In this document: in pieces, positions 1,973 through 10,745 of the stretch
Layout of the letters: each line of letters begins with the position of its first letter
Position numbering within the stretch: the stretch's first letter is position 1
DNA from: Chloroflexota bacterium
Lineage (GTDB): Bacteria > Chloroflexota > Anaerolineae > Aggregatilineales > Phototrophicaceae
NCBI GenBank assembly: GCA_011523735.1
Contig: WTGB01000165.1
Coordinates: 1 to 64,000 of the forward strand
Direction of reading: 5' to 3'
DNA length: 64,000 bases
Program-made: the position numbers and the translations under genes
Notes under the pieces: model-generated
Database searches by the model: none
The model's input: only the letters and a program-made list of their open reading frames with translations
What the model was told of the DNA's origin: nothing

Positions 1973-3295
1973 ATGTCTGCTAAAATGGCGCCTTGGCAAC
2001 CAGCCGGACAACTAGGCGATATCGTGCTTTCACCTGAGTTAAACAACAAGCTTCGTCACAATGCCGCCGTAAACATTATGGATGGCGCTCTCTTTGGCTT
2101 CGGCATCATGGGCTTGGCATCCTATGTTACCATAATCCCGCTCTTCCTATCCTACCTCACCGAATCGACAGCGCTTATCGGTTTTGTCGCGGCGCTCTTT
2201 CACATCGGCTGGCAAATCCCGCAATTGCTCACCTCAAGTTATGTCGCCGGGCTGGAGCGCTTCAAACCGATGGTGTTGGTGACGACGCTTTTTGAACGAC
2301 TGCCTTTCTTCGGCTTGGCGTTGGTTGCGCTTGCGATTCCGACCATCGGCACCGATGCCGCGCTTATCTTGACTTTGCTTCTGCTCGCGATCCAGTCTCT
2401 CGGCGGCGGTTTCACCGGCACGCCCTGGCAGAGCATGATAAGCAAGATTATGCCCGCCCACCGGCTCGGCACCTTCTTCGGCATACAGTCAGCCTGCGTC
2501 AATCTCTTCGGCGCGGGTGGCGCGCTTCTCGCCAGCCTGATTCTGAAGCGCCTTGATTATCCGGTCAGCTTCTCGCTCCTCTACTTCGTCACGGGCCTCA
2601 GCTTGGTTATCTCTTTCCTCTTTCTTGCCTGGACATACGAAACAAAGAGCGCGTCAAAAGATGTTGTTGAACGGTTGAATTGGTCTGATTTTGGCCGGCG
2701 GCTCCGCCAGATCCTGCATCGGAACTACAATTTTCGTTGGTTCCTCATCGCCCGCAGCCTGACATCGCTCAGTCTGACGGTGATCTCCTTCTACACTATA
2801 TTCGGCATCCGCCGCTTTGATATGTCGCCGGAATTCGTTGGCGTCATGACGAGCGTCCTGCTCCTTGCAAACACGCTGAGCAGCAGCGTCATTGGCTGGA
2901 TCGGCGACCGCTGGGGGCATCGCCGCGTGCTGATAATGGCCAATTTGCTGACCGTGCTGGGGATTGGCATTGCATTGACAGCGCCTGATGCCAGTTGGTT
3001 CTACCTGGTCTTTGCCCTCACTGGCGTCGTCAATGCCACGCAATGGACGACCATAATGACTATCACCGTTCAATTCTGTACCGTAGCGGAGCGTCCTTTT
3101 TACATAGGCATGGCGAATACTTTGATCGCGCCGGTGACGGTCTTCGCGCCGATCATCGGAGGCTGGCTCGTTGATGCCGTCAGTTTTGAATTGACCTTCG
3201 GCATCTTTGCGCTGGCTGGAGCGCTGTCGATTCTGGTTTTTGTCTTTCCGATGGAAGACCCGGGCGGCGCTGTCGGCATCGCCACGGCCGACTAG
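1973..3295 (+). CDS. MFS transporter, substrate unknown
   Basis: A 440-residue polytopic membrane protein with about 12 predicted hydrophobic segments. The cytoplasmic loop motif GWIGDRWGHRRVL in the second half is the MFS loop-2-like signature. It sits alone on the plus strand between the homoaconitase operon (divergent) and homocitrate synthase (convergent). Its TAG stop shares the palindrome CTAG (3292-3295) with the stop of homocitrate synthase. The position inside a lysine locus makes an amino-acid or intermediate transporter possible, but nothing in the sequence identifies the substrate. An alternative ATG lies at 1985. Confidence 0.8.
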   Translation: MSAKMAPWQPAGQLGDIVLSPELNNKLRHNAAVNIMDGALFGFGIMGLASYVTIIPLFLSYLTESTALIGFVAALFHIGWQIPQLLTSSYVAGLERFKPMVLVTTLFERLPFFGLALVALAIPTIGTDAALILTLLLLAIQSLGGGFTGTPWQSMISKIMPAHRLGTFFGIQSACVNLFGAGGALLASLILKRLDYPVSFSLLYFVTGLSLVISFLFLAWTYETKSASKDVVERLNWSDFGRRLRQILHRNYNFRWFLIARSLTSLSLTVISFYTIFGIRRFDMSPEFVGVMTSVLLLANTLSSSVIGWIGDRWGHRRVLIMANLLTVLGIGIALTAPDASWFYLVFALTGVVNATQWTTIMTITVQFCTVAERPFYIGMANTLIAPVTVFAPIIGGWLVDAVSFELTFGIFALAGALSILVFVFPMEDPGGAVGIATAD

Positions 3296-4443
3296 TCATC
3301 CACAGGCAGAATCATCTCGCCCAAAATCCGGTCGACATCATCGACAGTGATCGGCTGTTCATCCGCCAGCGACTTGACCTGTCTGGTCGCCAACTGGAGG
3401 GCATCCTCCTCCAAATCAATGCCCAAGCCGGTTGCTCGGTCGCGAATGGCGCTGCGCCCCACCAGTCGATGCGCGACGTCGATAATCCGCGACATGCCAA
3501 AGTCTTCTGGATTGATCGCCTCATAGGTGATCGGATTGTTGAGCACAGCCTTGGTGTGAACGCCGGCCTTGTGGTGGAAGGCGACCGCGCCGGTGATCGG
3601 TGTGTTGAAGGGGATGTCGATCCCGAGTTTTTCCGCTACCAGGCGCTCGATTTCCGCCAGCAGAGGCAGGTCGTATTTTTCTACCAGCGCCTTGTTATAG
3701 GTATACAAGCGAGCAATCAAGGCGCCCATCGCTGTGATGCCATTGCGCTCGCCGATGCCCAGGACAGTCGTGTCGATATGAGTCGCGCCCGCTTTTAATG
3801 CGCTGAAGGCATTGGCGACGGCGCAACTGCTGTCGTTATGCCCGTGGAATTCGATGTCGCAATTGACCACATCGCGCAGATTGGAAATCATGTTGTAAGT
3901 CTGCAGCGGGTCGGCAATGCCGACGGTATCGGCAACGCCAACACGATCGACACCGGCCAGATCCATCGCGCGGTAGACGGTCATCACGTCAGCGAAATTG
4001 CTGCGGAAAGTATCTTCGGTGCTGAAGCGCGTTTCGACATCGTTTGCCTTGAGGAAGTCGATGACCTTCTGCCCGATTTCGATGACCTGATCCAGGCTCT
4101 TGCCGTGGCTGTATTCGCGCATATAGTTTGATGTGCCAATGTAAACGTCAGCCCCATCAACGCCGCAGTCCACCGCCAGCTTGGCATCGCCCAGGTTGGC
4201 GCGGATGTGGGTCAGCAGCTTGAAACTGCGCGGCATATCGGCGATGGCCTTTATGGCGTTTGCGCTCTGCGGGCTGGCAACCGGCGTTGACAACTCCATA
4301 TATTCGACGCCGAATTGATCCAGCAGCCCGGCAATTTCGCGCTTGTCGTTAATCGTGAAATGCGTGCCGCGGAATTGCTCGCCTTCCCGCAGAGTGGAAT
4401 CGATAAAATGGAATTCGCCTACTGGAATCTCTCGTCTGTGCAT
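3292..4443 (-). CDS. hcs: Homocitrate synthase
   Basis: Condenses acetyl-CoA with 2-oxoglutarate, the committed step of aminoadipate-type lysine synthesis. The protein has 383 aa. Seen: DSTLREGEQF (15-24) carrying the catalytic Arg-Glu of the DRE-TIM barrel family, EFHGHNDSSCAVANAF (198-213) with the metal-binding His-X-His, LGIGERNGI (228-236) and an HKAGVHTKAV block. DSTLREGEQF and the following SPQS resemble Thermus/archaeal homocitrate synthases more than isopropylmalate synthases. It is the last gene of the lysW operon, 18 nt after lysK. Its stop overlaps that of the convergent MFS gene. Confidence 0.92.
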   Translation of the reverse strand: MHRREIPVGEFHFIDSTLREGEQFRGTHFTINDKREIAGLLDQFGVEYMELSTPVASPQSANAIKAIADMPRSFKLLTHIRANLGDAKLAVDCGVDGADVYIGTSNYMREYSHGKSLDQVIEIGQKVIDFLKANDVETRFSTEDTFRSNFADVMTVYRAMDLAGVDRVGVADTVGIADPLQTYNMISNLRDVVNCDIEFHGHNDSSCAVANAFSALKAGATHIDTTVLGIGERNGITAMGALIARLYTYNKALVEKYDLPLLAEIERLVAEKLGIDIPFNTPITGAVAFHHKAGVHTKAVLNNPITYEAINPEDFGMSRIIDVAHRLVGRSAIRDRATGLGIDLEEDALQLATRQVKSLADEQPITVDDVDRILGEMILPVDD

Positions 4444-7503: not shown

Positions 7504-8529
7504 TTATGGATAGATACCGGGAAACTCCAGCCCGGTCGTCTCATCAAATCCGTACATGAGATTCAGCGATTGTACGGCGCTGCCAGCCGCTCCTTTGCCC
7601 AAATTGTCGAGCGCTGCGATGAGCACGAGATGCCGGCCGTCTTCATCCAGTTCGAAACCGATATCGCAGAAATTCGTGCCGGCCACCACCCGCGGTTCCG
7701 GCAGCCGATGCAAGCCGAGCTTGCCGCTGACCAGCCGCACGAAAGGCTCATCGCGATATTGGGCGCGATAAATTCGCCAAATATCTCGTTCGTCCTTGCG
7801 CTCTGTGAGATAGCAGTGCGCCAACAGGTGTACGCCGCGCACCATCTCGATCGCGGTCACGGCAAAATGAATCGGCAGGTCGCAACTCAATACCATCTGG
7901 ACTTCCGCCATGTGCCGGTGCCCAGTCGCCTTGTACGTGCGGACGGCGCCGCTGCGCACAGGATGATGCGAACCCGCATTGCTCTTGTTGCCGCCCTCGG
8001 AGGAACCGACTTTGATCTCAATCATGGCCCGCTCAAGCAAACCCGCGCAAACCAACGGACGCAGCGCGAGATTAACCGCCGTCGCATTGCAGCCGACGCC
8101 GCTGACGAAATCCGCGCCTTGGAGTCGCTCGCGATTGATCTCCGGCAAGCCATACACAAAACGCTCCAGCCAGGTCTCCGCCGGGTGCGCTTCCCCGTAC
8201 CAGCGCTCATAGGCAGCCGCGGAATTGAGCCGGAAATCTGCCGATAGATCGATCAGCTTGCGCGCCAGCCCGGCGTAATGTTCAATATTGCGCGCGACCG
8301 TCCCGTGCGGCAGCGCCAGAATAAGCAGGTCACATTCCCCCAAGGTATCGGGATGGACGAACTTCAACGAGGAGACGCCGCGCATGTTTGGATGCGCGAT
8401 ATGCGCGTAGCGCCCGGCATGTTCGCGGCTCGTGATTTGGGTCACTTCCACCTTTGGATGGAAATGCAGCAGCCGCAGCAATTCGCCGCCGGTGTACCCG
8501 CTGCCGCCGACGATACCCGCCTTTATCAC
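7504..8529 (-). CDS. lysY: LysW-aminoadipyl phosphate reductase
   Basis: NADP-dependent semialdehyde dehydrogenase of the ArgC fold, 341 aa. GIVGGSGYTGGELLRL (5-20) is the Rossmann loop and Cys147 in SGVGCNATAVNL is the catalytic nucleophile. The SEGGNKSNAGSHHPVRSG stretch is the family's substrate region. Its ATG overlaps the lysX stop as ATGA. It is a paralogue of argC at 43.4 kb, from which it differs clearly, so two separate N-acyl pathways coexist here. Confidence 0.93.
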   Translation of the reverse strand: MIKAGIVGGSGYTGGELLRLLHFHPKVEVTQITSREHAGRYAHIAHPNMRGVSSLKFVHPDTLGECDLLILALPHGTVARNIEHYAGLARKLIDLSADFRLNSAAAYERWYGEAHPAETWLERFVYGLPEINRERLQGADFVSGVGCNATAVNLALRPLVCAGLLERAMIEIKVGSSEGGNKSNAGSHHPVRSGAVRTYKATGHRHMAEVQMVLSCDLPIHFAVTAIEMVRGVHLLAHCYLTERKDERDIWRIYRAQYRDEPFVRLVSGKLGLHRLPEPRVVAGTNFCDIGFELDEDGRHLVLIAALDNLGKGAAGSAVQSLNLMYGFDETTGLEFPGIYP

Positions 8530-9404
8530 GCCATAACCTCGATCTGCTGAATGACGAAATCTATAACTTCCTGGGCGATGTCAACACCGGTTGGCTTGCT
8601 GCTATTGCGGAATTCCATCGTGTGATTGATCTCATTGACGACGTAGTTGCCTTGAGCGTCTTCCAGCAGATCAATCGCCAGAATACCACCGCCGACCGCC
8701 TCAGCCGCCCGCAGGCAAATCTCATTCAACTGCTCGGTCACTGGACAGTTCGTCGCCTGTCCACCGCGAGCAGTATTGGTAATCCAATGATTCGATGCCC
8801 GGTAGATGGCGGCAATCGTGCGATCGCCAACCACAAAGGCGCGGATATCACGCCCGGGTTTGTCAACATATTCTTGCACGTAATAAATGTGATGATTGTA
8901 ATCGCCCAGCGTCTGTCGATGTTCAAGGATCGCTTCGGCGCTGTCGCGGTTGTGCACGCGCGCCAACAAGCGGCCCCAGGACCCAGTCACCGGCTTGAGC
9001 ACAGCCGGATATTCGACATCTTCAATCGCCTGCATCGCGCTGTCCGGCGTGAAAGCCACCCGCGTATGCGGCTGCGGGATGCCATGTTGCGTCAAGGCGA
9101 TGCTCGTGCGTAGCTTGTCGCTGCAAATCGCGGCTGTCTCGAAGCTGTTGAAAGTCCGCACTCCCCAGCTGTTGAGCACCGCCAGCGCATACATGCCGCG
9201 CGATGTACTGACGCAGCGCTCGAAGACCAGATCGTAATCGCGCCAGGCGCTGCCTGAGGGCGCCTTCTGCTCGGCGCCTTGCGATATATTAAAGTTCAAT
9301 TCGCGGTCGAGAATGATATCCGGGCTGATATCGCGATTGTTAAATGCGGCGAGGATCAGCTTCTCTTCAGCGCGAATGTGGGTGACAAGCAGGGCGACGC
9401 GCAT
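8526..9404 (-). CDS. lysX: LysW--aminoadipate ligase (ATP-grasp)
   Basis: RimK-like ATP-grasp ligase, 292 aa. It joins the alpha-amino group of alpha-aminoadipate to the C-terminal glutamate of LysW. Seen: the central PAVLKPVTGSWGRL ATP-grasp core, the YVQEYVDKPGRDIRAFVVG strand and VVNEINHTMEFRNSS near the C-terminus with the metal-binding Glu/Asn. It directly follows lysW (5-nt gap) with GGGGAG upstream of the ATG. Because a full ArgB/C/D/J set is present elsewhere in the window, LysX here probably serves lysine only. Confidence 0.94.
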   Translation of the reverse strand: MRVALLVTHIRAEEKLILAAFNNRDISPDIILDRELNFNISQGAEQKAPSGSAWRDYDLVFERCVSTSRGMYALAVLNSWGVRTFNSFETAAICSDKLRTSIALTQHGIPQPHTRVAFTPDSAMQAIEDVEYPAVLKPVTGSWGRLLARVHNRDSAEAILEHRQTLGDYNHHIYYVQEYVDKPGRDIRAFVVGDRTIAAIYRASNHWITNTARGGQATNCPVTEQLNEICLRAAEAVGGGILAIDLLEDAQGNYVVNEINHTMEFRNSSKPTGVDIAQEVIDFVIQQIEVMA

Positions 9405-9409
9405 GCGCT

Positions 9410-9589
9410 TTATTCTCCCCAGTCTTCTTCTATCTCGGGCGCTAGCTCCAGCTCAATCGGCTCCAGGCGCATGATCTCCAGTTCTATGCCGCACTCCGCG
9501 CATGAAACCAGCTCGTTCTCCATCGCATCGGCGGGAATCTCCACATCGGCATCGCATTCCGGGCAGAGCGGTGTTTCGGCTGTCATCAT
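9410..9589 (-). CDS. lysW: LysW amino-group carrier protein
   Basis: Small acidic carrier (59 aa) that protects and presents lysine intermediates. It shows the diagnostic zinc-binding CPECD near the N-terminus and CAECG in the middle. The C-terminus is EEDWGE, whose last Glu is the attachment point for aminoadipate. The start is set by AGGAG 5 nt upstream of ATG 9589; a TTG 18 nt further upstream is less likely because it would bury that ribosome-binding site. It is the first structural gene after the lysine-codon leader and terminator. Confidence 0.95.
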
Positions 9590-9619
9590 CGTTTCTCCTG
9601 TGTTCAAAATCTCACAATC

Positions 9620-9644
9620 AAAAAACCCGCCGTATGGGGCGGGT
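9620..9644 (-). terminator. Intrinsic terminator in the lysW leader
   Basis: On the minus strand ACCCGCC (9644-9638), loop CCATAC, GGCGGGT (9631-9625) form a perfect GC-rich 7-bp stem, followed directly by TTTTTT. It stands 31 nt before the lysW ATG, upstream of the operon rather than downstream of a gene, as an attenuator does. Confidence 0.85.
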
Positions 9645-9716
9645 AAGTGTTCAACTCTATCAGCACAAACAAGCCCATACTCAGCGGGTGCAGGTCTTCT
9701 TGGCCTTCTTGCTTGT
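9632..9716 (-). promoter_or_regulatory. Lysine attenuator: alternative leader pairings
   Basis: Three mutually interfering segments are visible on the minus strand. Segment 1, ACAAGC (9716-9711, codons 4-5 of the leader ORF), can pair with GCTTGT (9674-9669). The adjoining GTATGGG (9680-9674) can pair perfectly with CCCATAC (9638-9632), which includes the loop and part of the 5' arm of the terminator. A ribosome held at the lysine codons (9710-9696) would cover segment 1 and favour the second pairing, which destroys the terminator. The pairings are read directly; the mechanism is inferred and unfolded computationally. Confidence 0.7.
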
Positions 9717-9725
9717 ATTCGTCAT
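9681..9725 (-). CDS. Lysine leader peptide of the lysW operon
   Basis: A 14-codon [17 protein letters not shown], ends 36 nt before the terminator stem. Four of its 14 residues are lysine (AAG AAG GCC AAG AAG), as expected for a leader peptide that senses charged tRNA-Lys. The ATG lacks a good Shine-Dalgarno. An in-frame TTG at 9746, with GGAG 6 nt upstream, would add seven residues and may be the real start. It is too short for standard gene callers. Confidence 0.75.
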
Positions 9726-9831
9726 GCGGTCTGCCGCTTGGACCAATCTTGACTCCAACTTTATCGTCTAAGTCAGGCTTCAACTAGCATAAGTTTGTAC
9801 GAAAAATCAAATTAAACAAATATAATCTTAT

Positions 9832-10689
9832 CTAAAAGCCGAATATCGCGAGGCTGTCGTCCAAAGGCTTAATGTACTTGGCGCCGAAAATTATGAGATG
9901 CACCAGCAGCGGATACAGATTGTAGATATGTCGCCTCAGCTCGTAAAACTCCGATTCTATCGGGATTATCTCCCGATAGGCGCTGAACAGGTCCGCGCCG
10001 AAGCCGTCAAAGAGCATCATATAGGCGAGTTCCATTTCGTTGTGCGCGTAATAGAGGGCCGGATCAATGATGCCCGCCACGTGATCGCCGCGCACAATAA
10101 TGTTCGTTCGCCAAACATCGCCATGTATCAGCGCTGGATAATCTGGCTCGACGAGGTATTCCTCCAAGGCGTCGGCGAATCTCAGCAGGCGAGTTTCAAG
10201 CGCCGATGGCAATTCGCCCGAATCACGCGCCAAGCCAGTCATGTACAGCAGCCGGTTCTCGCGGAAGAACTCTACCCACGATGGCGTCGGCGGGTTAGGT
10301 TGATGCAGGGGACCAATCAGCGTGTCCCGCTCGAGGCCGTAGGCTGGACCGCGGACTTGGTGACATTCCGCCATCAGCCTGCCCAGATGCCGCAAGCTCG
10401 CGGGCCTCAATTCATCCCTACCGGCGATATGCTCCATCAGCAAGAGATCGGGCTCGGCATGTATTACCTGGGGGACCGGCAATTCGCTGCGCTCCCGCAA
10501 AGTGTCCAGCATATACGCTTCTATTGTCAGATCGTGACTGTGTTCGCCAGTCTTCGCGACGAGCGAACTGCCATCCGCGAAATCTACTCGGGTGACCTGG
10601 CTGATTTTGCCGCCTGTGAGCGATTGCAGCCACAGCGGTTCTCGCCGCAGTATCGCGCGGATTCTATCTAAAGTGTTCAGTCTTTGCAT
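9832..10689 (-). CDS. Fructosamine/ketosamine kinase family protein
   Basis: About 285 aa, matching the fructosamine kinase family (deglycation of protein-bound ketosamines) in the APH/kinase fold. Seen: KISQVTRVDFADGSSLVAK near the N-terminus, LIHGDVWRTNIIV (catalytic loop HGDxxxxN), GIIDPALYYAHNEMELAYM and the C-terminal LYNLYPLLVHLIIFG, all characteristic of the family. The ATG at 10689 is given; a TTG five codons upstream is an alternative, and neither has a clear ribosome-binding site. It is transcribed toward the lysW leader and away from rpmF. Confidence 0.85.
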   Translation of the reverse strand: MQRLNTLDRIRAILRREPLWLQSLTGGKISQVTRVDFADGSSLVAKTGEHSHDLTIEAYMLDTLRERSELPVPQVIHAEPDLLLMEHIAGRDELRPASLRHLGRLMAECHQVRGPAYGLERDTLIGPLHQPNPPTPSWVEFFRENRLLYMTGLARDSGELPSALETRLLRFADALEEYLVEPDYPALIHGDVWRTNIIVRGDHVAGIIDPALYYAHNEMELAYMMLFDGFGADLFSAYREIIPIESEFYELRRHIYNLYPLLVHLIIFGAKYIKPLDDSLAIFGF

Positions 10690-10745
10690 CTTGAGAGACG
10701 GCAATTTTCGCCAAGTGCTTAGCCACAGTGCCGACTATACACGGC

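Follow-up and report, generated by a model that had tools for sequence, protein, structure and literature searches.

How a bacterium of the Anaerolineae (Chloroflexota) adjusts transcription of its LysW-dependent lysine operon, and what a short lysine-rich open reading frame (ORF) followed by a terminator does in front of this operon, are the questions raised by the locus analyzed here. In the window, by which we denote the whole 64-kb stretch of DNA under analysis, the operon runs on the minus strand, as do all features described below unless stated otherwise. Its first structural gene, lysW, occupies 9410–9589, with the first ATG at 9589–9587 and a ribosome-binding site AGGAG at 9599–9595. 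The product matched NF041070 at 1.9e-19 (69.5 of 75 bits) and TIGR01206 at 7.6e-14 (51.3 of 53.2 bits), just under the curated cut-offs, and we call it LysW because of its carboxy-terminal EEDWGE and its place in the right operon. It is followed by lysX (8526–9404; TIGR02144, 331 bits at a cut-off of 275.6) and by the rest of the operon between 3292 and 8529, comprising lysY (argC-like), lysZ, lysJ, lysK and a homocitrate synthase gene (3292–4443), all assigned by NCBIfam models, which also detected hacA/hacB farther on from the operon (1881–86; hacA at 574–1881). Together, family models identified lysW, lysX, lysZ, lysK and the homocitrate synthase, and the presence of the latter indicates that the operon makes lysine and not arginine. 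The plus strand of the lysine cluster carries, between the homocitrate synthase gene and hacA, a gene for an MFS-type transporter (1973–3295), possibly of lysine or a related compound.

Upstream of lysW, the 14-codon ORF with four AAG codons reported in a preliminary description of this DNA was located at 9725–9681, extending from ATG 9725–9723 to TGA 9683–9681, with the lysine codons, all AAG, at 9710–9708, 9707–9705, 9701–9699 and 9698–9696. A short ORF carrying consecutive codons for the end product thus precedes the corresponding biosynthetic operon, the arrangement expected of an amino-acid attenuator. An intrinsic terminator, likewise expected of such a system, lies between this ORF and lysW (9644–9620), and the same element is seen in relatives. 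It consists of ACCCGCC (9644–9638), the loop CCATAC (9637–9632) and GGCGGGT (9631–9625), agreeing with the perfect 7-bp stem and six T's noted previously; six of the seven pairs are G–C, and the first T of the T run (9625–9620) falls within the stem. The Shine–Dalgarno sequence before the leader ATG at 9725 is weak (9726–9750), where a weak GGCA about 10 nt upstream recurs in much of the genus. Farther upstream, the genus alignment revealed two conserved blocks, TTTTTCGTACAAA and GATAAAGT, within 9755–9807 that are putatively promoter-like; the window sequence showed no good −35 element by these blocks.

The terminator (segments 3:4) overlaps a second possible pairing, delineated from the fold and from covariation. 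Segment 2 (GTATGGGC; 9673–9680), the 5′ strand of the putative antiterminator, follows directly after the stop codon, and segment 3 (GCCCCATAC; 9632–9640), its 3′ strand, overlaps the 5′ arm and the loop of the terminator. The alternative pairing of 7 bp proposed initially, 9680–9674 with 9638–9632 (GTATGGG/CCCATAC), is real and perfect, but its size had been understated. The best fold of 9690–9617, with a z value of −3.15 that was equalled by 2 of 200 shuffles, lengthens the helix by GGGC:GCCC over a bulged C (GTATGGGC with GCCC(C)ATAC) and also pairs ACCCGC (9689–9684) with GCGGGT (9630–9625), the 3′ arm of the terminator. The competing structure therefore occupies this 3′ arm too. The ACCCGC stretch, located within the leader ORF, repeats the sequence of the terminator 5′ arm, and the genus keeps its ACCC.

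To relate these structures to translation, we mimicked the ribosome by a 27-nt stretch held single-stranded, a calculation that describes equilibrium folding with an assumed footprint and not kinetics. A ribosome with its A site on the stop codon gave a predicted probability of 1.00 for the terminator of the window leader, whereas at lysine codons 1–4 the values were 0.02, 0.00, 0.00 and 0.72, reaching 1.00 at every later codon. Across 33 genus members, the median terminator probability rose from 0.03 at the third lysine to 0.97 at the fourth, and 26 of the 33 leaders switched. The model thus predicts the geometry of an attenuator, in which a ribosome at the stop codon would permit the terminator and one at the regulatory codons the antiterminator. 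The lysine run accordingly occupies the final codons at which a stalled ribosome would still keep the terminator from forming, and stalling at the fourth lysine codon is itself predicted to result in termination. For the ribosome-free window leader, the predicted occupancy of the terminator is just 8%, as it is outcompeted by a longer hairpin that shares its 3′ arm and likewise ends at the T run.

We compared regions upstream of lysW from 34 genomes of the genus (window included) with 42 further distinct family leaders, 15 leaders of families f3/f8 and 18 of families f2/f7; the copies named here are from Anaerolineae and Chloroflexi metagenome-assembled genomes. An automatic scan yielded a lysine ORF plus terminator in 33/34 genus members, 40/42 other family leaders, 15/15 of f3/f8 and 4/18 of f2/f7, the latter indicating that the element is not universal among LysW operons. 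The sole genus miss, L028, carries the element too and had escaped the scan due to a wrongly chosen lysW start, so that leader ORF and terminator are present in 34 of the 34 sampled genus genomes, and the alignment of relatives that had been proposed as a check turned out in favour of the element. Counted from the stop, lysine codons occupy positions −9, −8, −6 and −5 throughout the 33 profiled genus members, except for one K-to-T change, and the two lysine pairs are separated by Ala or Val. Outside these residues the peptide is variable, both in sequence and in length (11 to 19 residues). At the first two lysine positions, AAG and AAA occur in a ratio of 28 to 5, a synonymous variation indicating that the amino acid is what is kept.

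Further lysine leaders were observed in other Anaerolineae families (L182, L186, L197, L207, L219, L225, L226, L228). Within f7, L057 and L067 are diverged candidates, their peptides ending in KTGGKKTSF and KKGGKKTTPL before the stop and followed by a GAAGGG-type terminator, and several other f7 leaders are blank. A scan of 30 LysX loci (25 from other Chloroflexota classes, 5 from Anaerolineae), reaching at most 1.5 kb upstream, a range too short to catch a leader when the first gene lies far away, gave no match for 27 loci and none that was convincing outside Anaerolineae. The three loci with matches were L250 (Anaerolineae), exhibiting a tandem pair, and L254 and L258, both weak; Thermomicrobium roseum had no lysine leader match before lysX.

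The same leaders allowed us to assess the competing pairings by covariation. A helix of 5–12 bp between the stop-codon region and the terminator 5′ arm plus loop is found in 81 of 84 type A leaders, in 53 sequence forms. Across genera, pairing 2:3 amounted to −15.5 kcal/mol with its own partner compared with −11.8 kcal/mol after swapping partners, with 0 of 5000 permutations as good, so the antiterminator covaries in relatives as the preliminary description had anticipated. Partner-swap permutations leave phylogeny in; the control pairing 1:3 has the same phylogeny and therefore serves as a safeguard, and with 1164 of 5000 permutations as good it showed no excess within its own leader. Similarly, the four pairs adjoining the GGG:CCC core were formed in 123 of 184 cells, in a crude register, against 93 on average and at most 112 after shuffling. 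Inside the genus the 2:3 signal was weak (115/5000 permutations as good), as expected from the little variation there. Segment 1 (AGCAAGAAGGCC; 9702–9713), which contains lysine codons, can pair with 9676–9661 in the region after the stop, in the manner of the 1:2 protector stem of classical attenuators; this 1:2 pairing covaries outside the genus (0/5000 swaps as good), whereas covariation inside the genus was not supported (4806/5000). The 2:3 data point to an antiterminator that excludes the terminator and has been maintained through compensatory exchanges, as would be characteristic of an amino-acid attenuator.

Several controls address whether such an arrangement could arise by chance. 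On both strands of the 64 kb, only one lysine-run ORF has a terminator 10–120 nt downstream, namely this element, and a narrow pattern for further genome copies (Ala or Gly in the middle) gave seven KKxKK sites with a terminator at the window's only. Dinucleotide-shuffled leader regions contained a lysine ORF plus terminator in 0 of 1090 cases, and none of the other amino acids exceeded 5/34 in the genus in the same scan. Arginine scored in 13/42 other family leaders and 10/15 of f3/f8, matches that we tentatively ascribe to mixed KR/RR stretches, for instance the WRR ends of the second-type peptides described below. A chance ORF or chance terminator is ruled out by the window scan, the shuffles and the other-amino-acid control. 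A related explanation is that the terminator merely ends the kinase-like gene upstream of the leader (9832–10704), which lies on the same strand and stops 187 nt before it, the short ORF being there by coincidence. This is extremely unlikely, since the KKxKK ORF persists together with the terminator in genera whose upstream sequence differs, lysine stands out from the other 19 amino acids, the shuffles gave no lysine leader, and the antiterminator covaries.

Taken together, the element very probably acts by ribosome-mediated transcription attenuation, with lysyl-tRNA as the sensed signal and the LysW-dependent (alpha-aminoadipate) lysine operon as the target. The basis for this assignment is the sequence elements, their conservation and covariation, and a predicted folding that switches with the ribosome position. 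With ample charged tRNA-Lys, the ribosome would pass KKAKK to the UGA at 9683–9681 and cover segment 2 (9680–9673), upon which the terminator (9644–9625) would form and RNA polymerase would stop near 9620, before lysW. With lysine in short supply, the ribosome would wait at a lysine codon and leave segment 2 free to pair with segment 3 (9640–9632); this pairing would block the terminator, and the operon would be transcribed. We infer that the ORF is translated, that ribosomes stall upon lysine starvation and that termination and read-through take place in the cell. The attenuator architecture claimed at the outset, for which folding with a masked stretch had been suggested, is corroborated by the footprint folding that switches at the lysine codons, by the kept ORF and terminator and by the covarying antiterminator.

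Lysine genes serve as the textbook example of control by riboswitches, with lysine operons of other phyla using the L-box, which speaks for an RNA binding lysine directly with merely incidental lysine codons. The L-box (RF00168) likewise confers lysine-responsive premature termination on lysine genes, but by direct metabolite binding. It had no match in the whole genome, whereas four control genomes do match, and no Rfam family reached its gathering score within the window, so neither an L-box nor a T-box was matched there. Moreover, conservation maintains a run of lysine codons in frame, which change synonymously, and not an aptamer core, leaving a riboswitch with next to no likelihood. The attenuator reading has a further competitor, in which the leader peptide slows or stalls the ribosome through its lysine-rich nascent chain or another signal that is not specific for tRNA-Lys charging; leader ORFs able to sense other signals are exemplified by the Salmonella mgtCBR leader (PMC3641672). 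The lysine residue precedes lysine genes across families, in runs that differ in form (KKAKK, KKKQSKK, KQSKK) and so fit codon counting better than a single arrest peptide. We thus consider a nascent-chain effect very unlikely and retain attenuation by lysyl-tRNA.

Outside the genus, most family leaders as well as those of f3/f8 contain two lysine attenuators in series before lysW (e.g. L037, L041, L046, L047, L074), as viewed in the 480 nt upstream of lysW. The strict scan counted tandems in 22/42 other family leaders and 12/15 of f3/f8, with more detected by eye. In L041, the first attenuator encodes MTSIIITIILSKKAKKTKPK, followed by a stop and the terminator AACCTGCC-CGAAA-GGCAGGTT, and the second encodes MKQIKKSTTLSG, again followed by a stop, with the terminator CGCCGTCCAG-ATTTGAC-CTGGACGGCG. 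For this second type, the end of the ORF together with the stop codon (TCTGGATAG) constitutes the antiterminator strand, with 0 of 5000 permutations as good for its 2:3 pairing. Equilibrium folding with the ribosome footprint does not switch for the second type, for which a kinetic model would be needed. The window itself has one attenuator only. On balance, we favour a class-wide Anaerolineae family of lysine attenuators on LysW operons that would be ancestrally tandem, with a KKAKK type first and, after it, a type ending in RSG before the stop, whose stop-codon region acts as antiterminator strand. Both would read lysine and so render the control by tRNA-Lys charging multiplicative or sharper, and the genus of the window would have kept the first only. 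Of all the features described here, this class-wide tandem arrangement is the likeliest to be new.

The window's element resembles the trp, his, thr, leu, ilv and phe attenuators of Proteobacteria and Actinobacteria in its short ORF rich in codons of the regulated amino acid, its overlapping 2:3 and 3:4 pairings, to which a 1:2 pairing may add, and the terminator before the first structural gene. It differs from them in being lysine specific, in its occurrence in Chloroflexota and in an antiterminator strand that starts right after the stop codon, by which a ribosome at the stop codon would represent the terminating state. Tsubouchi et al. reportedly described in 2005 (J Biol Chem) a leader-peptide attenuation of the Thermus thermophilus lysine gene cluster; likened by this description, that leader would match the window's in attenuating an alpha-aminoadipate operon, in a different phylum. 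In addition, a plasmid-borne lys operon of Deinococcus sp. NW-56 (L231:145–246) exhibits a KK leader, MTALATASKKPTAPPG followed by a stop, and a strong terminator before lysS, whereas the leader of the window precedes lysW. A limited literature search for a lysine leader peptide found no report. The initial suggestion that the locus may be new therefore has to be narrowed: in view of the Thermus report and the Deinococcus leader the mechanism is known, and it is this member that is new.

Leader-peptide attenuators have been placed in Proteobacteria, Actinobacteria and some Firmicutes (PMC1262725, PMC2965389). According to a 2010 survey, such systems were known only in Proteobacteria and Actinobacteria before its own Firmicutes additions (PMC2965389), and given this taxonomic range the Chloroflexota case, well supported by comparison, widens that of the mechanism. 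In Salmonella mgtCBR, tandem attenuators also combine two short leader ORFs in one leader, as in the relatives of the window (PMC3641672). They sense ATP and proline, whereas both leaders of the relatives carry lysine runs; the only tandem case that we found in the literature thus senses two different signals (PMC3641672), and the tandem lysine attenuators of the relatives offer a natural test of the effect of doubling an attenuator. Short lysine ORFs that currently escape annotation can be recognized with the help of this element, and the leaders could perhaps tell lysine from arginine LysW operons. Our analysis suggests that a whole Chloroflexota lineage possessing the LysW pathway relies on tRNA charging, as read by the ribosome, and not on a riboswitch.
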